Below, piece after piece: positions 14,768 through 37,541 of a stretch of DNA of 48,109 bases (its first letter is position 1; each line of letters starts with the position of its first letter). The notes beneath the pieces were generated by a model. The model saw only the letters and a program-made list of their open reading frames with translations. It was not told the DNA's origin and made no database searches. The translations under genes were made by a program, and so were the position numbers. The stretch is from Singulisphaera sp. GP187 (GTDB lineage: Bacteria > Planctomycetota > GCA-002687715): contig CAMDTN010000018.1 of the NCBI GenBank assembly GCA_945907755.1, positions 1-48,109 on the forward strand, given 5' to 3'.

Positions 14768-17521
14768 ATGAACAAAACTCTACTGCTCGTTGTTGTGTTC
14801 GCGTGTTCCCTGCCGCTCTTCGCACAAGAGACGAGCAAGGCCGATGCCGCTCAGATTGCGCGGCTCGAACGCGTTGAAGAACTGAGCGAGGATCTCGCCA
14901 ACGATCTGTTGGAAATGTCGGTGGCGGTGCGCGACAAAGACGCCGTCGCCCTGCGCAACTTCTTCGCGGAATCGCTGTTCGCCGCACCGTTCGCCTGCAT
15001 GCCGCAAGCATTGCAGCAGAAGGTGAAGTGGATCAGCCAGCGCGCGTGGGCCCCAGCGGAAGCCGATGGCGCCGCAGCAGAGCAGCGCGCCGTCAGCGGC
15101 GCAGTTTTCCATGAACGCTGGATGCAGATGCTGACTAACTTCGCCTCCATCGAAGATGTGCGCTTCAAGATGAAGGAAGGCGACTTCAACGAAGCAGGCA
15201 CAGCCAAAGTGCGCGTGGCCTTCTATGTCATCGGGCGCAACACGCAGCAGCAACGCGAATGGTTGCGCGGCAATGTTTGGGTGGAAGCGGCCAAGTCCGA
15301 GGGGCACTGGCGTTGGTCCAGCTACAAACCGTTGTCCATCGATTCGCTGGTGGCTACGCAAGACCTCTTCACGGATGTGGCCGCAAGCACGGGCCTCGCG
15401 CTGGAACTCCCGGCTTACCAAGGCGGCTACGCCTGGTATGGCGCGGCCACTGCAGATTTGAACAACGACGGCACGCTGGACCTCGTGGCCACCACCGGCG
15501 GACGCAATCAGATTCACCTTGGCGACGGCGCAGGGCGCTTCACCGACGCCTCGCAATCCAGCGGCTTTGCAGCCTTGGCCAACGGCCTCGGCCCGTTGCT
15601 GCTGGACTACGACCATGACGGCGATGTCGATGTGTTCCTCACCGCCATCGGCACGCAATTGCTGTTCGAGAATCGCATGGTGCCCGACGGCAAGCTGAGC
15701 TTTGACGATGTGTCCGCCAGCAGCGGTGTGGCCCGCGACGCCGTTGGTTTTTCCGCCGCCGCCGCCGATGTCAACAACGACGGCTTCGAAGACATTTATG
15801 TGTGCTCGTACAACCATTACGGCCGCGTGACGCCGAACTCATGGTTCAAGGCCACCAACGGCACGCCCAATCTGCTCTTCATCAACAAAGGCGACGGCAC
15901 TTTCCGCGAAGCAGCGAAGGAATGGGGCGTCGATGATCGCCGCTGGAGCTACGCCGCGCAGTTCGCCGACCTTGATCGCGACGGGCGCATGGATTTGTAT
16001 GTGGCCAACGACTTCGGCGAGAAGGCGTTATTCATGAATAAGGGCGACCATTTCGTGGATGAAGCGGTGGCACGCGGCGCGAGTGACCCCGGCAACGGCA
16101 TGGGTGTGTCCTTCGGCGACTTCGACAACGACGGGCACTTGGACATTCACGCCAGCAACATGTCCAGCACTGCGGGCAACCGCATCATCGGCCGCATTTA
16201 TGCGGGCTCCACCGCGGGCAACAATGTGCTGAAGAAACTTGCAGCAGGCAACAATTTGCTGCGCAACAAAGGCGACGGCACTTTCGAGGACATCACCGCG
16301 GCTATCGGCGGCTTTTCCGGTGGCTGGGCTTGGGGTGGCGGCTTCATCGATTGCGACAACGATGGCTGGAGCGATTTCTTCTGTCCCAACGGTTTCGTAT
16401 CGGGCCCTTCGATGAAGGACACTTGAAGCCACTTCTGGCGTCAGGTCGTGACGCTCACCAATGATCCCAAAGCTGAATCGGCACTACGCGATGATCAAAC
16501 CCGCCTCATGGGCGAAAAGGGTTTCTCGTTCAGCGGCTATGAACGCGATCCATTGTTCTTGAACCTTGGCGGCAAGAAGGTGCTGGATATTTCCGGTGTC
16601 TCTGGCGTTGATTCCATCAGCGACGGGCGCGCCGGTGTGTTCGCCGATTTCGACAACGATGGCGACACCGACATCTTCATGAACACCATTCAAGGCGATG
16701 CGCACATTCTTTTCCGCAACAATGTGGGCGCAGCAGCCGGCTGGGTGCGCGTCAGTTTGGAAGGCAACGCCAAGATCGGGCCCGCAGCATGGGGCGCGCA
16801 AGTGCGCGTGAAAACTCCCGTCGGCGTGCAAACCAAGTTGAAGAGTTGTGGCGAGGGCTTCCTTTCGCAGCACGACCCACGCTTGCTCTTCGGGCTGCCG
16901 CAAGACGGTGCAGCTGAGTGGATCGAAGTGTGCTGGCCAGGCGGCGCAGTAGACCGCTTCACCGGGCCGTTCAAAGCTGGCAGCGAAGTGCTGCTGCGGC
17001 CAGCGGCGAAGGAAGCGCAAATCATTTCGAGCAAACGCACCTGCCTCGCCGATCCGCCATCCGCCTCGGATCACGCGCTGCGGCGCTTGAAGCTGCGCCA
17101 AGGCGCACAGGTGCCGGACCTCGCCATCAGCGACAGCGCGGGCAAGGCCACAACGCTGCGTGCGGGCCTGCGCCCCGGCCGCAAGATGCTGCTGAACCTA
17201 TGGGCCACTTGGTGCACCAACTGCGCGGTGGAAATGCCGCTGCTCAGCAAAATGGCACCTGCGCTCACAGCCAAGGGCATCGATCTGTGCGGCCTCAGCC
17301 TCGACACGACTGCGGGTGTGGACATCGCTGCTTGGGCACAAACCAAGCAAGTCACTTACCCGCTGTTCCTAGGCGGAACTAACGCTGCCGCGGCGCTGTA
17401 TGCGAGCCCGCAGATCACCGTGCCGGTGACGATCCTCATAGATGCCAACGGCATAGTGCTGCAAGCATGGAATGGTTGGAACGCTGAAGTGGAAGCAGCC
17501 ATCAGCGCGCTTACGCGCTAA
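14768..17521 (+). CDS. Predicted selenoprotein: FG-GAP/CRTAC1-ASPIC protein with TlpA domain
   Basis: Reading TGA 16424 as selenocysteine gives 917 aa in one frame with Sec at residue 553. The order is: signal peptide (1-19, MNKTLLLVVVFACSLPLFA); a helical and NTF2-like N-terminal region (20-190); FG-GAP/VCBS calcium-loop repeats (DLNNDGTLD, DYDHDGDVDV, DVNNDGFEDI, DFDNDGHLDI); Sec in KDT-U-SHFWRQVV; another repeat (DFDNDGDTDI); an ASPIC/UnbV domain (about 655-745, GAQVRVKT, FGLPQDGAAEWIEVCWPGG); and a TlpA/thioredoxin domain with WATWCTNC (C816, C819). The protein should act outside the cytoplasmic membrane. All domains continue in the same frame after the TGA, and a SECIS-like hairpin follows it. 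AGAGG about 6 nt before ATG 14768 supports the start. The alternatives are a nonsense mutation or sequencing error, but no other lesion is seen in 2.7 kb. The redox role is inferred. Confidence 0.8.
16424..16456 (+). promoter_or_regulatory. UGA(Sec) codon and bacterial SECIS-like hairpin
   Basis: The in-frame TGA is at 16424-16426. A 10-nt spacer is followed by the stem GGCGTCA (16437-16443), the loop GGTCG (16444-16448) and the stem TGACGCT (16449-16455), giving six Watson-Crick pairs plus a G-U pair. The distance from UGA to the loop is 17 nt. The loop starts with two G and contains GGUC. The E. coli fdhF SECIS has the same GGUC loop at nearly the same distance from its UGA. Known bacterial SECIS elements need a G in the first two loop positions and roughly this spacing for SelB binding; both hold here. 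Confidence 0.75.
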
Positions 17522-17587: not shown

Positions 17588-20500
17588 ATGCACGACACAG
17601 CACGCATTCTGGTGATGTTTCTTTGTTTTGTCACCGCATTGCAGGCACAAGACAAGACCGAAGAAGCGTGGCGGCACGTCAACGCTGGCGTGGCGTTGCT
17701 GGAGCAATACAGCAACGAGAAAGCTGCGGTGGAGTTTCGCGCGGCGCTGGAGTTAGACCCGAAACTGAATGCGGCACGCATCAACTTGGCCATCGCGCTG
17801 CACCATGCGTCGCTGATCCCAGAAGCCTTGGCGGAAGCCTCGAAGGCAGCAGAAGCCGCGCCGGATTCCCCCCACGCGCACTATTTGGTGGCTTTGAATG
17901 CGCGCCAATCCAACGACTTGCCGCTGGCGCGCGCGTCGTTCGAGCGTGTCCACCAACTGGACCCAACAGATACTGCCACGCGCATCCACTTGGCACGGCT
18001 GTGCATGGAGGCGCAAGAGTTCCCTCGGGCTTTGGAATTGTTGACCGACGCCGCGGAGCGCGAACCCTTCAACACCACCGCGGTCTACAACCTCGGCATG
18101 ACCTTGCAGCGCTTGGGCCGCCGCGACGAAGCCAAACCATTGCTGCAACGCTTTCAGCAATTGCGCACCAGCGGCTACGCCACTGCGCTGGGCACTCAGT
18201 ATTTGGAAGCAGGCCGTTATGCAGCAGCGGTTACCGCTGACGCGCGCACGCAACCCTTCGTTTCAACCGGCGCCAGTGTGGCCCTCACCGTTCCAGAGGC
18301 GCTACGTGGTGCTGTGCCTGCCTGCGACGCCGCGAAACCCGCTGCGAAAATAAACCTCGCCGACATTGATGCCGATGGCGACGAAGACGCGCTGCTGTGC
18401 GGGCCTGACGGCGCGCGCGTATGGCTGAACACCGCGGGCAGTTTCAAAGCCGGCGCGCAATTGTTCGATGCTGCCACCTATGGCGCGTTGGCTGGCGACA
18501 TGAATGCTGATGGCGCGAACGACATCGTGCTCTTGACCGCAGCAGGCGTGCGCATCCTCTGCAATAGTGCCGATGGCTTCGTTGATGCCACAGCACAGGC
18601 GGGCTTCCCCGCCGCCCTCGGGCACTTGCACTGCGGCGCGCTGGCCGATGTTGACCACGATGGAGACTTAGACATCTTGCTGGGCGCCAGCGAAGGCGTG
18701 CAACTGCTGCGCAACAATGGCGACGGCACCTTTCTGGACATCACTGCAAATGCAGGTGTCGGCAACAAAGAAGCGGTGCATGCCATCGCTGCCAGCGATT
18801 TGGACAACGGCCGCGACATCGATCTCGTACTGGCACTGTCGAGCGGCGCCAGAATCGCCAAGAACCACCGCGACGGAACGTTCGCAGCAACAGCGCTGGG
18901 CACTCCTGCACAAGCAGTGCGCGTCTTAGCCATTGGCGACAGCAATAAGGACGGTTTCGAAGATCTCTTCCTTGGCGGTGAAGCGGCGGCGGAACACTTG
19001 CAAAGCAATGGGCGCGGCGGCTATTCCACCGTTTCCATGGCCATCGCTCACAGCGACACTGCACTGTTCACCGACATCGACAACGACGGCTGGCTGGATT
19101 TGTTGGTGCTGGCGGATGGCCGCGTGCTGTGGTGCCGCGGCGCCCCTGCTGGCCTGCAAGCTCCCGTTATTCTCAGTGGTGAAGCCACGCTTGCCACCCG
19201 CGCAATGGCAGCAGCGGACATCGATGGCGACGGCGACAGCGACATTGTGTGCGCGGATGCCAGCGCCCACCCGCAAGTGCTGCTGAACAGCGTCACCCCA
19301 AGCGCGCGTGCGCTGGAATTGTCGTTGACAGGGCGCGTGTCCAATCGCTCGGGCTTCGGCACCAAGATTGATCTGCGCGCAGGCAGCCTGACACAGAAAC
19401 TGGAAACAGGCAGCAGTTTTCCACCGAATAGACCCGCCGTGCCGCATTGTGGCCTCGGGAACAGAACGCAAGTGGACGCGGTGCGCTTGCTGTGGCCTTC
19501 GGGCAATGTGCAGGCCGAATTGCCAACGCGCACAACGCCGCTGCATTGGAAGATCGAAGAAGTGGATCGCAAGCCGTCGTCGTGCCCCAACCTTTACACA
19601 TGGAATGGGCACCAATTCCAGTTCATCACAGATTTCATGGGCGGCGGCGAAATGGGTGCGTGGGTGGAAGAGGGTTTGCGCAATTCTCCAGACCCTGAAG
19701 AATATGTGCGCATTCCGCCCGGGGCATTAGTGCCCCGCAACGGCTTCTTGGAATTGCGCGTGACCAACGAACTGGAAGAGGCGCTGTTCATCGATCATCT
19801 TTCGCTGCTCGCAGTGGATCACCCATCGGGCATCCATGTGTTCCCCAACGAAGGCATGAGCTTTGTGGCCCCTCGCCCATGGCAATTGCATGCGCTGAGT
19901 GATTTGCAGTCAGCACTACGCGTCACTGATTCTCTGGGCCGCGAGCACACGGACAGCGTGGCCGTTGTGGACCGCAGCAGCGCCGCCGAGTTTTTCCGCA
20001 CCGCCATTCGCGGGTTTTCCACAGCGCACTGGCTGCAATTCGAATTCGCAACCATCCCAGAACACCCTGTGCTGTTGCTCAGCGGCTGGACGGATTACGC
20101 CTTCAGCAGCGACACACGCCGAGCGCAGCAGGCGGGCTTGCAACTCAACCCACCGAGCCTCGAAGCACAGCAGCCTGATGGCTCGTGGCGCGTGGTGGAA
20201 AGCGACATCGGCATTCCGGTGGGCAGTCCGCAATCCTATTGCGTCGACTTGCACGGCAAGCTGCACCGCGGCGTGACACGCTTGCGGCTCAGCACGAATA
20301 TGTGCGTGCATTGGGACAGAATCGCACTCGCGCAAGGCCATCCAGAACTACGCCCGCAAGTCAGTCGCGCACTGCCGCACACGGCCAACCTTGCATGGCG
20401 CGGTTATTCCGGCTTGCGTCCGACAAGCGCTAACAGCACCGGTGGTTTCGACTATGCCCGCGTCGCCTGCGCAGCACAGTGGAAAACTTTCGCAGGATTC

Positions 20501-20851
20501 TTCACACGCTTCGGCGAAGTCAACTCGCTGCTGGATGCGGTGGATGACATCTTTGTCGTCAGTGCCAGCGGCGACGAAATCGCGTTGCAATTCCGCGAGC
20601 AAGATTTCCCAGCATTGCGCGCTGGCTGGACGCGCACTTGGATGCTGCATGCCGATGGCTTCAGCAAAGAAATGGACCCCAATTCCGCCACGCCCGACAG
20701 CTTGCTGCCTTTGCCATTCCACGGCATGAGCCGCTATCCCTACGGCAGCAACGAACACTTCCCCATGACGCCTGAGCGTGAAGCCATCATGCGACGGTAC
20801 AACACGCGCCACCTCCGCAGCCGCATCCCCGCCGCTGTACAGGCACGCTGA
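17588..20851 (+). CDS. Exported TPR/FG-GAP/ASPIC-UnbV repeat protein
   Basis: The product is 1087 aa. It has a signal peptide (MHDTARILVMFLCFVTALQA) and several TPR units over about residues 25-200 (for example AAVEFRAALELDPKLNAARI). FG-GAP/VCBS repeats follow over about 240-560, with calcium loops such as DIDADGDED, DVDHDGDLDI, DIDNDGWLDL and DIDGDGDSDI. An ASPIC/UnbV domain (about 575-660, FGTKIDLRAG, AVRLLWPSGN) precedes a roughly 430-residue C-terminal region beginning TWNGHQFQFITDFMGGGEMG, which is seen with CRTAC1-like proteins but has no function I can name. The protein is extracellular or periplasmic and probably a beta-propeller scaffold. It lies 66 nt downstream of the predicted selenoprotein gene and may be co-transcribed. 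No in-frame TGA is present. Confidence 0.8.
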   Translation: MHDTARILVMFLCFVTALQAQDKTEEAWRHVNAGVALLEQYSNEKAAVEFRAALELDPKLNAARINLAIALHHASLIPEALAEASKAAEAAPDSPHAHYLVALNARQSNDLPLARASFERVHQLDPTDTATRIHLARLCMEAQEFPRALELLTDAAEREPFNTTAVYNLGMTLQRLGRRDEAKPLLQRFQQLRTSGYATALGTQYLEAGRYAAAVTADARTQPFVSTGASVALTVPEALRGAVPACDAAKPAAKINLADIDADGDEDALLCGPDGARVWLNTAGSFKAGAQLFDAATYGALAGDMNADGANDIVLLTAAGVRILCNSADGFVDATAQAGFPAALGHLHCGALADVDHDGDLDILLGASEGVQLLRNNGDGTFLDITANAGVGNKEAVHAIAASDLDNGRDIDLVLALSSGARIAKNHRDGTFAATALGTPAQAVRVLAIGDSNKDGFEDLFLGGEAAAEHLQSNGRGGYSTVSMAIAHSDTALFTDIDNDGWLDLLVLADGRVLWCRGAPAGLQAPVILSGEATLATRAMAAADIDGDGDSDIVCADASAHPQVLLNSVTPSARALELSLTGRVSNRSGFGTKIDLRAGSLTQKLETGSSFPPNRPAVPHCGLGNRTQVDAVRLLWPSGNVQAELPTRTTPLHWKIEEVDRKPSSCPNLYTWNGHQFQFITDFMGGGEMGAWVEEGLRNSPDPEEYVRIPPGALVPRNGFLELRVTNELEEALFIDHLSLLAVDHPSGIHVFPNEGMSFVAPRPWQLHALSDLQSALRVTDSLGREHTDSVAVVDRSSAAEFFRTAIRGFSTAHWLQFEFATIPEHPVLLLSGWTDYAFSSDTRRAQQAGLQLNPPSLEAQQPDGSWRVVESDIGIPVGSPQSYCVDLHGKLHRGVTRLRLSTNMCVHWDRIALAQGHPELRPQVSRALPHTANLAWRGYSGLRPTSANSTGGFDYARVACAAQWKTFAGFFTRFGEVNSLLDAVDDIFVVSASGDEIALQFREQDFPALRAGWTRTWMLHADGFSKEMDPNSATPDSLLPLPFHGMSRYPYGSNEHFPMTPEREAIMRRYNTRHLRSRIPAAVQAR

Positions 20852-36506: not shown

Positions 36507-37541
36507 TCAGCCTCTCCGTTCTTCAAGCACCGCAGGCAGGCCGTGCAGGCTCACCCACACCGCCGTGCCCGCAGCCACATCCGCGGATTCCACTCTGTGT
36601 TCCACATCCGCCACAGCGACACAGGCGTGGCGCCGCGACCCGAGGAACAGCATACGCGTCACGCGCGCCGGGATGCCTTCGCCTGCGGCGCCAAGGCGCA
36701 GATTCTCGGGGCGCACCAACAACCACACCGCACCGCGTTTCTCTGTTGCTGCCACTGGCACGCGCCCAAAGGGCGTGTCCGCTTGGCCTTGCGCATCCAC
36801 TGTTGCAGCGATGGCCACTCCTTCACCCAGCAAGCGCGCCACCGTGCGCGAAGCTGGCCGCTGCCACACAGCTTCAGGCCGCCCTTGTTGCAGCAAGCAG
36901 CCTTGGTCCATGAGCAGTAATTGATCGGCCAATTCCATGGCCTCTTCGTGATCGTGAGTGACATGCAACACGGTGCAGCCTTCGCGCTGCCGCGTCGCCG
37001 CCAACAACGCGCGCACCGCGTGCTTCAAGCCTTGGTCGACACTGCTGGTGGGTTCATCGAGCAACAACACTTGCGGGCGCGTCACCAGCGCGCGAGCCAG
37101 CGCCAGCCGCTGGCGTTCGCCACCAGAAAGTTCACCGGGCAAGCGCGCCGCCAATGCGGCGATGCCGAGCGGTTCCAAGCTCTGCGCCACGCGCTGGCGC
37201 CGCTCCGCCGCGTCCAAGCGCAGAGGCTTCAGCACCAAGTGCAAATGCTCCGCCACACTTAATTGCGGCCACAGTCCCAAACCTTGGAACAAGTAGCCCA
37301 ACCCGCGCGCCTCCGGGGCGACACTGCGCCCAGCTTGTTGCACCACAGCGCCGCCGATGCGCACTTCGCCAGCACATTCCAGCAACCCTGCAATGCAGCG
37401 CAACACGGTCGATTTTCCTGCGCCAGAAGGCCCGAGAATGGACGCAAAACCGCCGCGCTCCACCGCGAAGCTGATGTCGCGGCAAACCACGCGCCCACCC
37501 AACTCGCAATTGAGTCCTTGCACTTCGAGTCCTGCGCTCAT
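36507..37541 (-). CDS. Iron-type ABC importer, ATP-binding protein
   Basis: The product is 344 aa. ATG 37541 overlaps the permease stop (ATGA); longer upstream starts lie in the permease gene. Walker A GPSGAGKST, signature LSGGERQRLALARAL, Walker B VLLLDEPTSSVD and switch THDHEEA are all intact. The C-terminal TOBE-like domain (LVRPENLRLG, followed by beta strands) is typical of FbpC/PotA/MalK-type importers. Together with the double-domain permease and the binding protein upstream it forms a complete importer of the ferric-iron (Fbp/Fut) class. Substrate assignment rests on the binding protein and is not certain. Confidence 0.88.
   Translation of the reverse strand: MSAGLEVQGLNCELGGRVVCRDISFAVERGGFASILGPSGAGKSTVLRCIAGLLECAGEVRIGGAVVQQAGRSVAPEARGLGYLFQGLGLWPQLSVAEHLHLVLKPLRLDAAERRQRVAQSLEPLGIAALAARLPGELSGGERQRLALARALVTRPQVLLLDEPTSSVDQGLKHAVRALLAATRQREGCTVLHVTHDHEEAMELADQLLLMDQGCLLQQGRPEAVWQRPASRTVARLLGEGVAIAATVDAQGQADTPFGRVPVAATEKRGAVWLLVRPENLRLGAAGEGIPARVTRMLFLGSRRHACVAVADVEHRVESADVAAGTAVWVSLHGLPAVLEERRG

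Follow-up and report, generated by a model that had tools for sequence, protein, structure and literature searches.

Organization of the gene and domain architecture of its product

The window, i.e. the whole stretch of 48,109 nucleotides analysed here, belongs to a 2.68-Mb Singulisphaera sp. genome that is 97% complete and available as a draft in 94 contigs. On the forward strand of the window, a frame of 917 codons (14768-17521) is open apart from a single TGA at codon 553 (16424-16426), and neither a second stop nor a frameshift was detected in it. A homologue (L017) with 78% identity is collinear with the window gene and carries one TGA at the same codon. The description of this locus in a first-pass annotation as one otherwise continuous gene interrupted by one TGA was thus confirmed. 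The features of the locus are as follows.

14768-17521, forward strand: whole predicted selenoprotein gene, 917 codons including Sec553, stop codon TAA at 17519-17521, with collinear homologues
14768-14827, forward strand: putative export signal MNKTLLLVVVFACSLPLFAQ, read from the translation
15419-17053, forward strand: FG-GAP/ASPIC beta-propeller region (residues 218-762) with Dx[DN]xDG calcium-type loops; Pfam FG-GAP_3 5.8e-40; CRTAC1 (9etn) top by sequence and by fold
16418-16450, forward strand: Sec motif D-T-U-S-H-F-W-R-Q-V-V, with D551, U553, W557 and R558 conserved
16424-16426, forward strand: UGA codon predicted to be read as selenocysteine (Sec), residue 553; the column holds TGA in 118 loci of the phylum, 26 of Acidobacteriota and 3 of Gemmatimonadota
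16437-16455, forward strand: bSECIS-type hairpin GGCGUCA-GGUCG-UGACGCU, characterized by folding, shuffles and covariation
16787-16966, forward strand: UnbV_ASPIC domain (residues 674-733), Pfam PF07593 2.3e-13
17102-17461, forward strand: C-terminal TlpA/ResA-type thioredoxin domain (residues 779-898), Pfam AhpC-TSA 6.7e-17 and Redoxin 2e-12; solved structures of ResA and TlpA matched
17213-17224, forward strand: thioredoxin active site C816-T-N-C819 (WATWCTNC), identified in the sequence
17588-20851, forward strand: neighbouring TPR + FG-GAP + ASPIC gene without Sec, 66 nt downstream of the selenoprotein gene

In the 917-residue protein, five FG-GAP_3 stretches were recognized by Pfam. The order of FG-GAP repeats followed by ASPIC/UnbV (PF13517 and PF07593, both above cut-off) assigns the protein to the CRTAC1/ASPIC-UnbV family, and the Redoxin/AhpC-TSA domain with its WCxxC motif (WATWCTNC) is of the TlpA/ResA-like type. 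CRTAC1 (9etn) was the nearest solved relative both in the sequence search (2.6e-24) and in the fold search (1.8e-19). In AlphaFold2 models from four sequences, pLDDT was below 50 around Sec553. A short helix begins at or next to residue 553 in both models (pLDDT there below 50), and because of this poor confidence no geometric claim is made.

Conservation of TGA at the position of residue 553

Homologues were searched in 294 Planctomycetota genomes, mostly drafts or metagenome bins, of which 125 yielded matches, and more than 100 further stretches were added. The codon aligned to residue 553 was scored in 155 phylum loci at E < 1e-25. TGA was found in 118 of them, a Cys codon in nine and codons for other residues in 18 (five Arg, four Glu, three Asn, two His, two Ala, one Asp, one Gln), while ten loci could not be aligned at this position. 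TAA or TAG did not occur at the column in any of the 155 loci. Not all loci are independent, as exemplified by L017 and L046, which are identical across the aligned region and apparently derive from the same genome. The TGA persists in phylum homologues down to approximately 30% identity. Apart from this column, the aligned family cores contain only two in-frame stops, both in L061; together with the 118 TGA codons at one column, this means that the codon position is not due to chance.

The TGA-bearing family spans at least three phyla. In Acidobacteriota, TGA was present at the column in 26 of the 30 loci examined, and 20 of these TGA loci are whole-protein relatives (43-52% identity) that include the thioredoxin domain; three further loci with TGA were found in Gemmatimonadota. 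Within the window's phylum, at least 61 of the 294 genomes sampled possess the TGA form, in addition to many Acidobacteriota, and up to three TGA copies per genome were found; these counts are lower bounds, with at most three candidates scored per genome in the large searches. A search for a second Sec homologue within the window's own genome was negative. Locus L236, which had been considered as such, was rejected as an ordinary ASPIC gene ending in TGA. No relatives were found on viral contigs.

Among TGA homologues, D551, W557 and R558 are conserved to 99%, 94% and 83%, respectively, and W520, W522, D551, W557, R558, E592, D619 and R621 are conserved family-wide. The propeller contains no strictly conserved partner Cys (the best candidate, C346, reaches 56%), and neither UxxC nor CxxU occurs in the Sec motif. 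The nine Cys loci form one clade (L174, L175, L180, L186, L183, L171, L173, L192 and L178) with the motif DY-C-TxFW. Members of this clade have no thioredoxin domain, and their host genomes are mostly devoid of Sec machinery. In L061 (G020:C78), the two additional TGA codons are located 21 and 25 codons past the Sec TGA; they may represent extra Sec residues, an error or decay.

A hairpin downstream of the UGA codon

The hairpin at 16437-16455 starts 10 nt after the UGA and consists of a 7-bp stem (GGCGUCA/UGACGCU) and the loop GGUCG, with a UGA-to-loop distance of 17 nt and an energy of -9.5 kcal/mol. Stem, loop and spacing agree with those proposed in the first-pass annotation, and all four properties fit the bacterial SECIS model. 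When the RNA was folded from the first base past the UGA, the same hairpin was the minimum-energy structure (-10.0). In a 58-nt fold including the UGA and upstream bases, a competing hairpin pairing through the UGA was slightly favoured, and the z value of -0.64 was unexceptional; this fold was not taken as a test, since the UGA is occupied by the ribosome. The energy of the hairpin was reached by 0.8% of 3000 synonymous shuffles and at 41 of the gene's 897 codon positions. By itself, the window hairpin is only moderately unlikely to occur by chance, and hence the real test must come from relatives. No match to Rfam was obtained over the window or over the hairpin, so that the latter is not represented by any existing model.

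Across 116 unique TGA contexts, the energy of the best model hairpin averaged -9.4 kcal/mol as compared to -3.3 for synonymous, codon-usage-weighted shuffles (mean z -2.2). Energies of -7.5 kcal/mol or lower were reached in 81% of these contexts, and the UGA-to-loop distance was 17 or 18 nt in 85 of them. The 27 non-TGA homologues showed no hairpin excess (z -0.14), and the Glu, Arg, Asn, His and Ala forms, which make up smaller groups, mostly lack the hairpin. Further, the two stem arms change in step (GCGUCA/UGACGC, GCGACA/UGUCGC, GCGCCA/UGGCGU and GCGACG/CGUCGC). The fifth codon past the UGA encodes Arg, and its third base, which is silent, can be paired with position 1 of the ninth codon in 75 of 94 cases, compared to a mean of 44 and a maximum of 61 in permutations that ignore kinship. 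This ninth codon, on the opposite stem arm, is ACG, TCG or GCG and thus encodes Thr, Ser or Ala. In a sign test, approximately four independent pairs on the tree pointed in the same direction on average, short of significance. The hairpin is under selection.

Selenocysteine machinery and genetic code

All four components of the Sec machinery, whose presence the first-pass annotation had proposed to check, were detected in the window's genome: tRNA-Sec scored 78 bits, beside selA with 498 bits, selB with 325 bits and selD with 242 bits. Every one of the 61 genomes with the TGA form has SelB above cut-off, tRNA-Sec or both (51 have both), versus 144 of the remaining 233 (Fisher p 1e-11, kinship ignored). 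Both SelB and tRNA-Sec were missing in five of the seven genomes with a Cys form. TGA serves as stop codon of 12 of the 16 main genes in the window, i.e. as an ordinary stop, indicating that the genetic code is unchanged. In the family set, UGA ends 63 of 145 genes. The only other UGA-split gene in the window (36507-36509, reverse strand) was rejected as a candidate: the next frame opens with GTG directly after the stop, and most likely two adjacent genes are present.

The SelD encoded at L193 (G000:C26:33300-34233) has an in-frame TGA of its own in the motif GGGUASK and hence is itself of the Sec type. A contig end interrupts its gene, the C-terminal fragment of which is located on C71.

Evolution of the TGA form and its link to the thioredoxin motif

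A tree of 138 sequences was calculated from which the columns around Sec were left out. TGA is represented in every large group of this tree, and the Arg, Asn/His, Glu and Ala forms constitute smaller groups that are mostly nested in TGA clades. On this unrooted tree, gain and loss of TGA are indistinguishable. The first-pass annotation had suggested inspecting homologues for Cys or UGA, as opposed to unrelated residues such as Glu, at column 553. The outcome was in its favour: TGA is dominant and spread over three phyla, a Cys clade exists, and Glu, Arg, Asn, His and Ala are confined to the smaller non-TGA groups.

In the phylum set, a C-terminal CxxC motif was present in 67 of 98 TGA homologues with complete C-termini versus none of 27 non-TGA homologues. 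Outside this set, one exception was encountered, namely L222, an Asn form of Acidobacteriota which carries CxxC. Both associations of Sec, that with the thioredoxin motif and that with the hairpin, pointed in the same direction in approximately 3.4 of 4 independent pairs and never in the opposite one, pairs that are too few for significance. The distribution of the motif suggests that Sec and the thioredoxin domain may work together. CxxC is absent from about one third of the TGA proteins with complete C-termini, so that the reductant of these proteins must be separate. Replacement of a catalytic Sec by residues other than Cys (Arg, Asn, His, Glu, Ala) is unusual and suggests that such copies have another role.

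Comparison with known selenoproteins and CRTAC1 relatives

The gene shares several properties with bacterial SelB/bSECIS selenoproteins such as the formate dehydrogenase FdhA: an in-frame UGA, a hairpin immediately downstream with a G opening a small loop, spacing within 16-37 nt, SelA, SelB, SelD and tRNA-Sec in the genome, and a clade of Cys forms. Unlike in those proteins, Sec is located in an FG-GAP/ASPIC propeller within the motif DxU[ST]x[FY]WR that lacks UxxC and CxxU, and most replacements are residues other than Cys. A TlpA-type domain in the same chain is also found in the UGC-containing TlpA disulfide reductase family and other selenoproteins with Trx fold (PMC13188914). In contrast to the UGC-containing TlpA family, in which Sec is part of the thioredoxin active site, the TlpA domain described here has an ordinary CTNC motif, and the TGA is positioned approximately 260 residues upstream in the propeller. 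With CRTAC1 (9etn) and bacterial CRTAC1/ASPIC-UnbV proteins, the protein has the FG-GAP propeller and the ASPIC domain in common. The Sec segment (residues ~467-616), however, was not aligned to any part of 9etn by phmmer, and no TlpA domain was matched in 9etn. A CRTAC1 family protein with FG-GAP repeat was reported in hydrazine-synthase-like gene clusters (PMC12758564); it belongs to the same domain family, and selenocysteine is not mentioned there.

A catalogue from 2026 lists 119 prokaryotic selenoprotein families, the majority of which adopt a thioredoxin-like fold or are homologous to thiol-based oxidoreductases (PMC13188914). Table 1 of that work contains no FG-GAP, ASPIC, UnbV or CRTAC1 family, and no selenoprotein model of NCBIfam release 20 covers residue 553. 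Both results are in line with the earlier surmise of a new or little-described family. Planctomycetes are known to use Sec (PMC4807772). Our search of the open literature did not reveal a report of such a family, and an earlier listing among the supplementary candidates of PMC4807772 is possible. The gene probably represents a new bacterial selenoprotein family in which a standard decoding mechanism serves an unexpected protein.

Decoding of the UGA codon and proposed role of Sec553

The first-pass annotation had predicted a selenoprotein, and the conserved TGA column, the Sec machinery and the hairpins of homologues support this. Judged from the sequence data, it is highly probable that the UGA at codon 553 is decoded as selenocysteine. 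A nonsense mutation, pseudogene or sequencing error, i.e. a lesion in a dead gene, might be suspected, since a single stop in a long frame resembles a fresh lesion and the window comes from a draft genome in 94 contigs. The probability of such a lesion is negligible in view of the same TGA in 118 phylum homologues and two further phyla without TAA or TAG, the count of only two further in-frame stops across all aligned cores, and SelB and/or tRNA-Sec in every TGA carrier. Likewise, the possibility that resequencing might uncover another codon at 16424 is countered by the same TGA in independent assemblies of other species. It is also very unlikely that two proteins are made, one of 552 amino acids ending at the UGA and a second one, comprising the ASPIC-TlpA half, by restart at the GTG at 16448. 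A 357-codon frame does begin with this GTG, and a fraction of ribosomes ordinarily terminates at the Sec codon of a selenoprotein gene. However, the residues between UGA and GTG belong to a motif conserved at the amino acid level (W557 94%, R558 83%), non-TGA homologues run as one chain with Cys, Asn, Arg, His or Glu, and the hairpin would be left without a purpose. Insertion of another amino acid by code change or suppression is conceivable, residue 553 being deduced from the DNA. This has little to commend it, because most genes of the window (12 of 16) and 63 of 145 in the family set terminate at UGA, carriers always possess Sec machinery, the hairpin conforms to the SECIS model, and one clade has Cys instead.

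The conserved UGA, the complete Sec machinery, the SECIS-type hairpin, the domain layout and the co-occurrence of Sec and thioredoxin motif are supported by computation; from these we infer Sec insertion, export, an active-site role and reduction by the TlpA domain. SelB loaded with Sec-tRNA(Sec) would bind the hairpin at 16437-16455, selenocysteine would be inserted at the UGA (16424-16426), and the product would be a protein of 917 residues that apparently bears a signal for export. Sec553 would then be placed on a segment inserted in the FG-GAP/ASPIC propeller, among W520, W522, D551, W557, R558, E592, D619 and R621, where its most likely role would be that of a redox or nucleophilic centre outside the cytoplasm. 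A small oxidant, a thiol or a metal is a plausible substrate. The fused TlpA/ResA-type domain (CTNC) would return Sec553 to the reduced state, and the disulfide of this domain might in turn be reduced by a membrane thiol relay. On balance, we favour this reduction of Sec553 by the fused domain. Alternatively, Sec553 might be a metal ligand or have some other role while the TlpA domain acts on other substrates. The absence of CxxC in a third of the TGA forms with complete C-termini, the abundance of calcium-type loops in the propeller and the metal-ligand nature of some replacements (His, Glu, Asn) would agree with that, whereas the confinement of CxxC to TGA forms in the phylum set (67/98 vs 0/27, not kinship-independent) speaks against it; we consider this alternative possible though not probable.

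With some reservation, we lean towards a large undescribed family, present in at least three phyla, in which Sec would form the active site of an exported propeller enzyme fused to its own thioredoxin-type reductant. This would be an enzyme class outside the Trx fold, and many Planctomycetota and Acidobacteriota might devote much of their selenium to it as one of its main uses. The Sec of this common family would be located in an FG-GAP/ASPIC propeller. Annotation software that treats UGA as a stop would split each such gene in two, which is why the family can hide in annotations. As Sec marks a likely catalytic residue, it offers an entry point for studying what bacterial CRTAC1/ASPIC proteins do. 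The family also makes it testable why bacteria with multiple copies keep selenium metabolism.

Two observations on related genes are added. The gene at 17588-20851, which has a long stretch without Pfam match past its ASPIC domain, is adjacent to the selenoprotein gene in an arrangement that is kept in the genus, an association only. Genome G170 (L081, L086) possesses full Sec machinery and three copies with His, His and Asn at the Sec column, two of which are adjacent.
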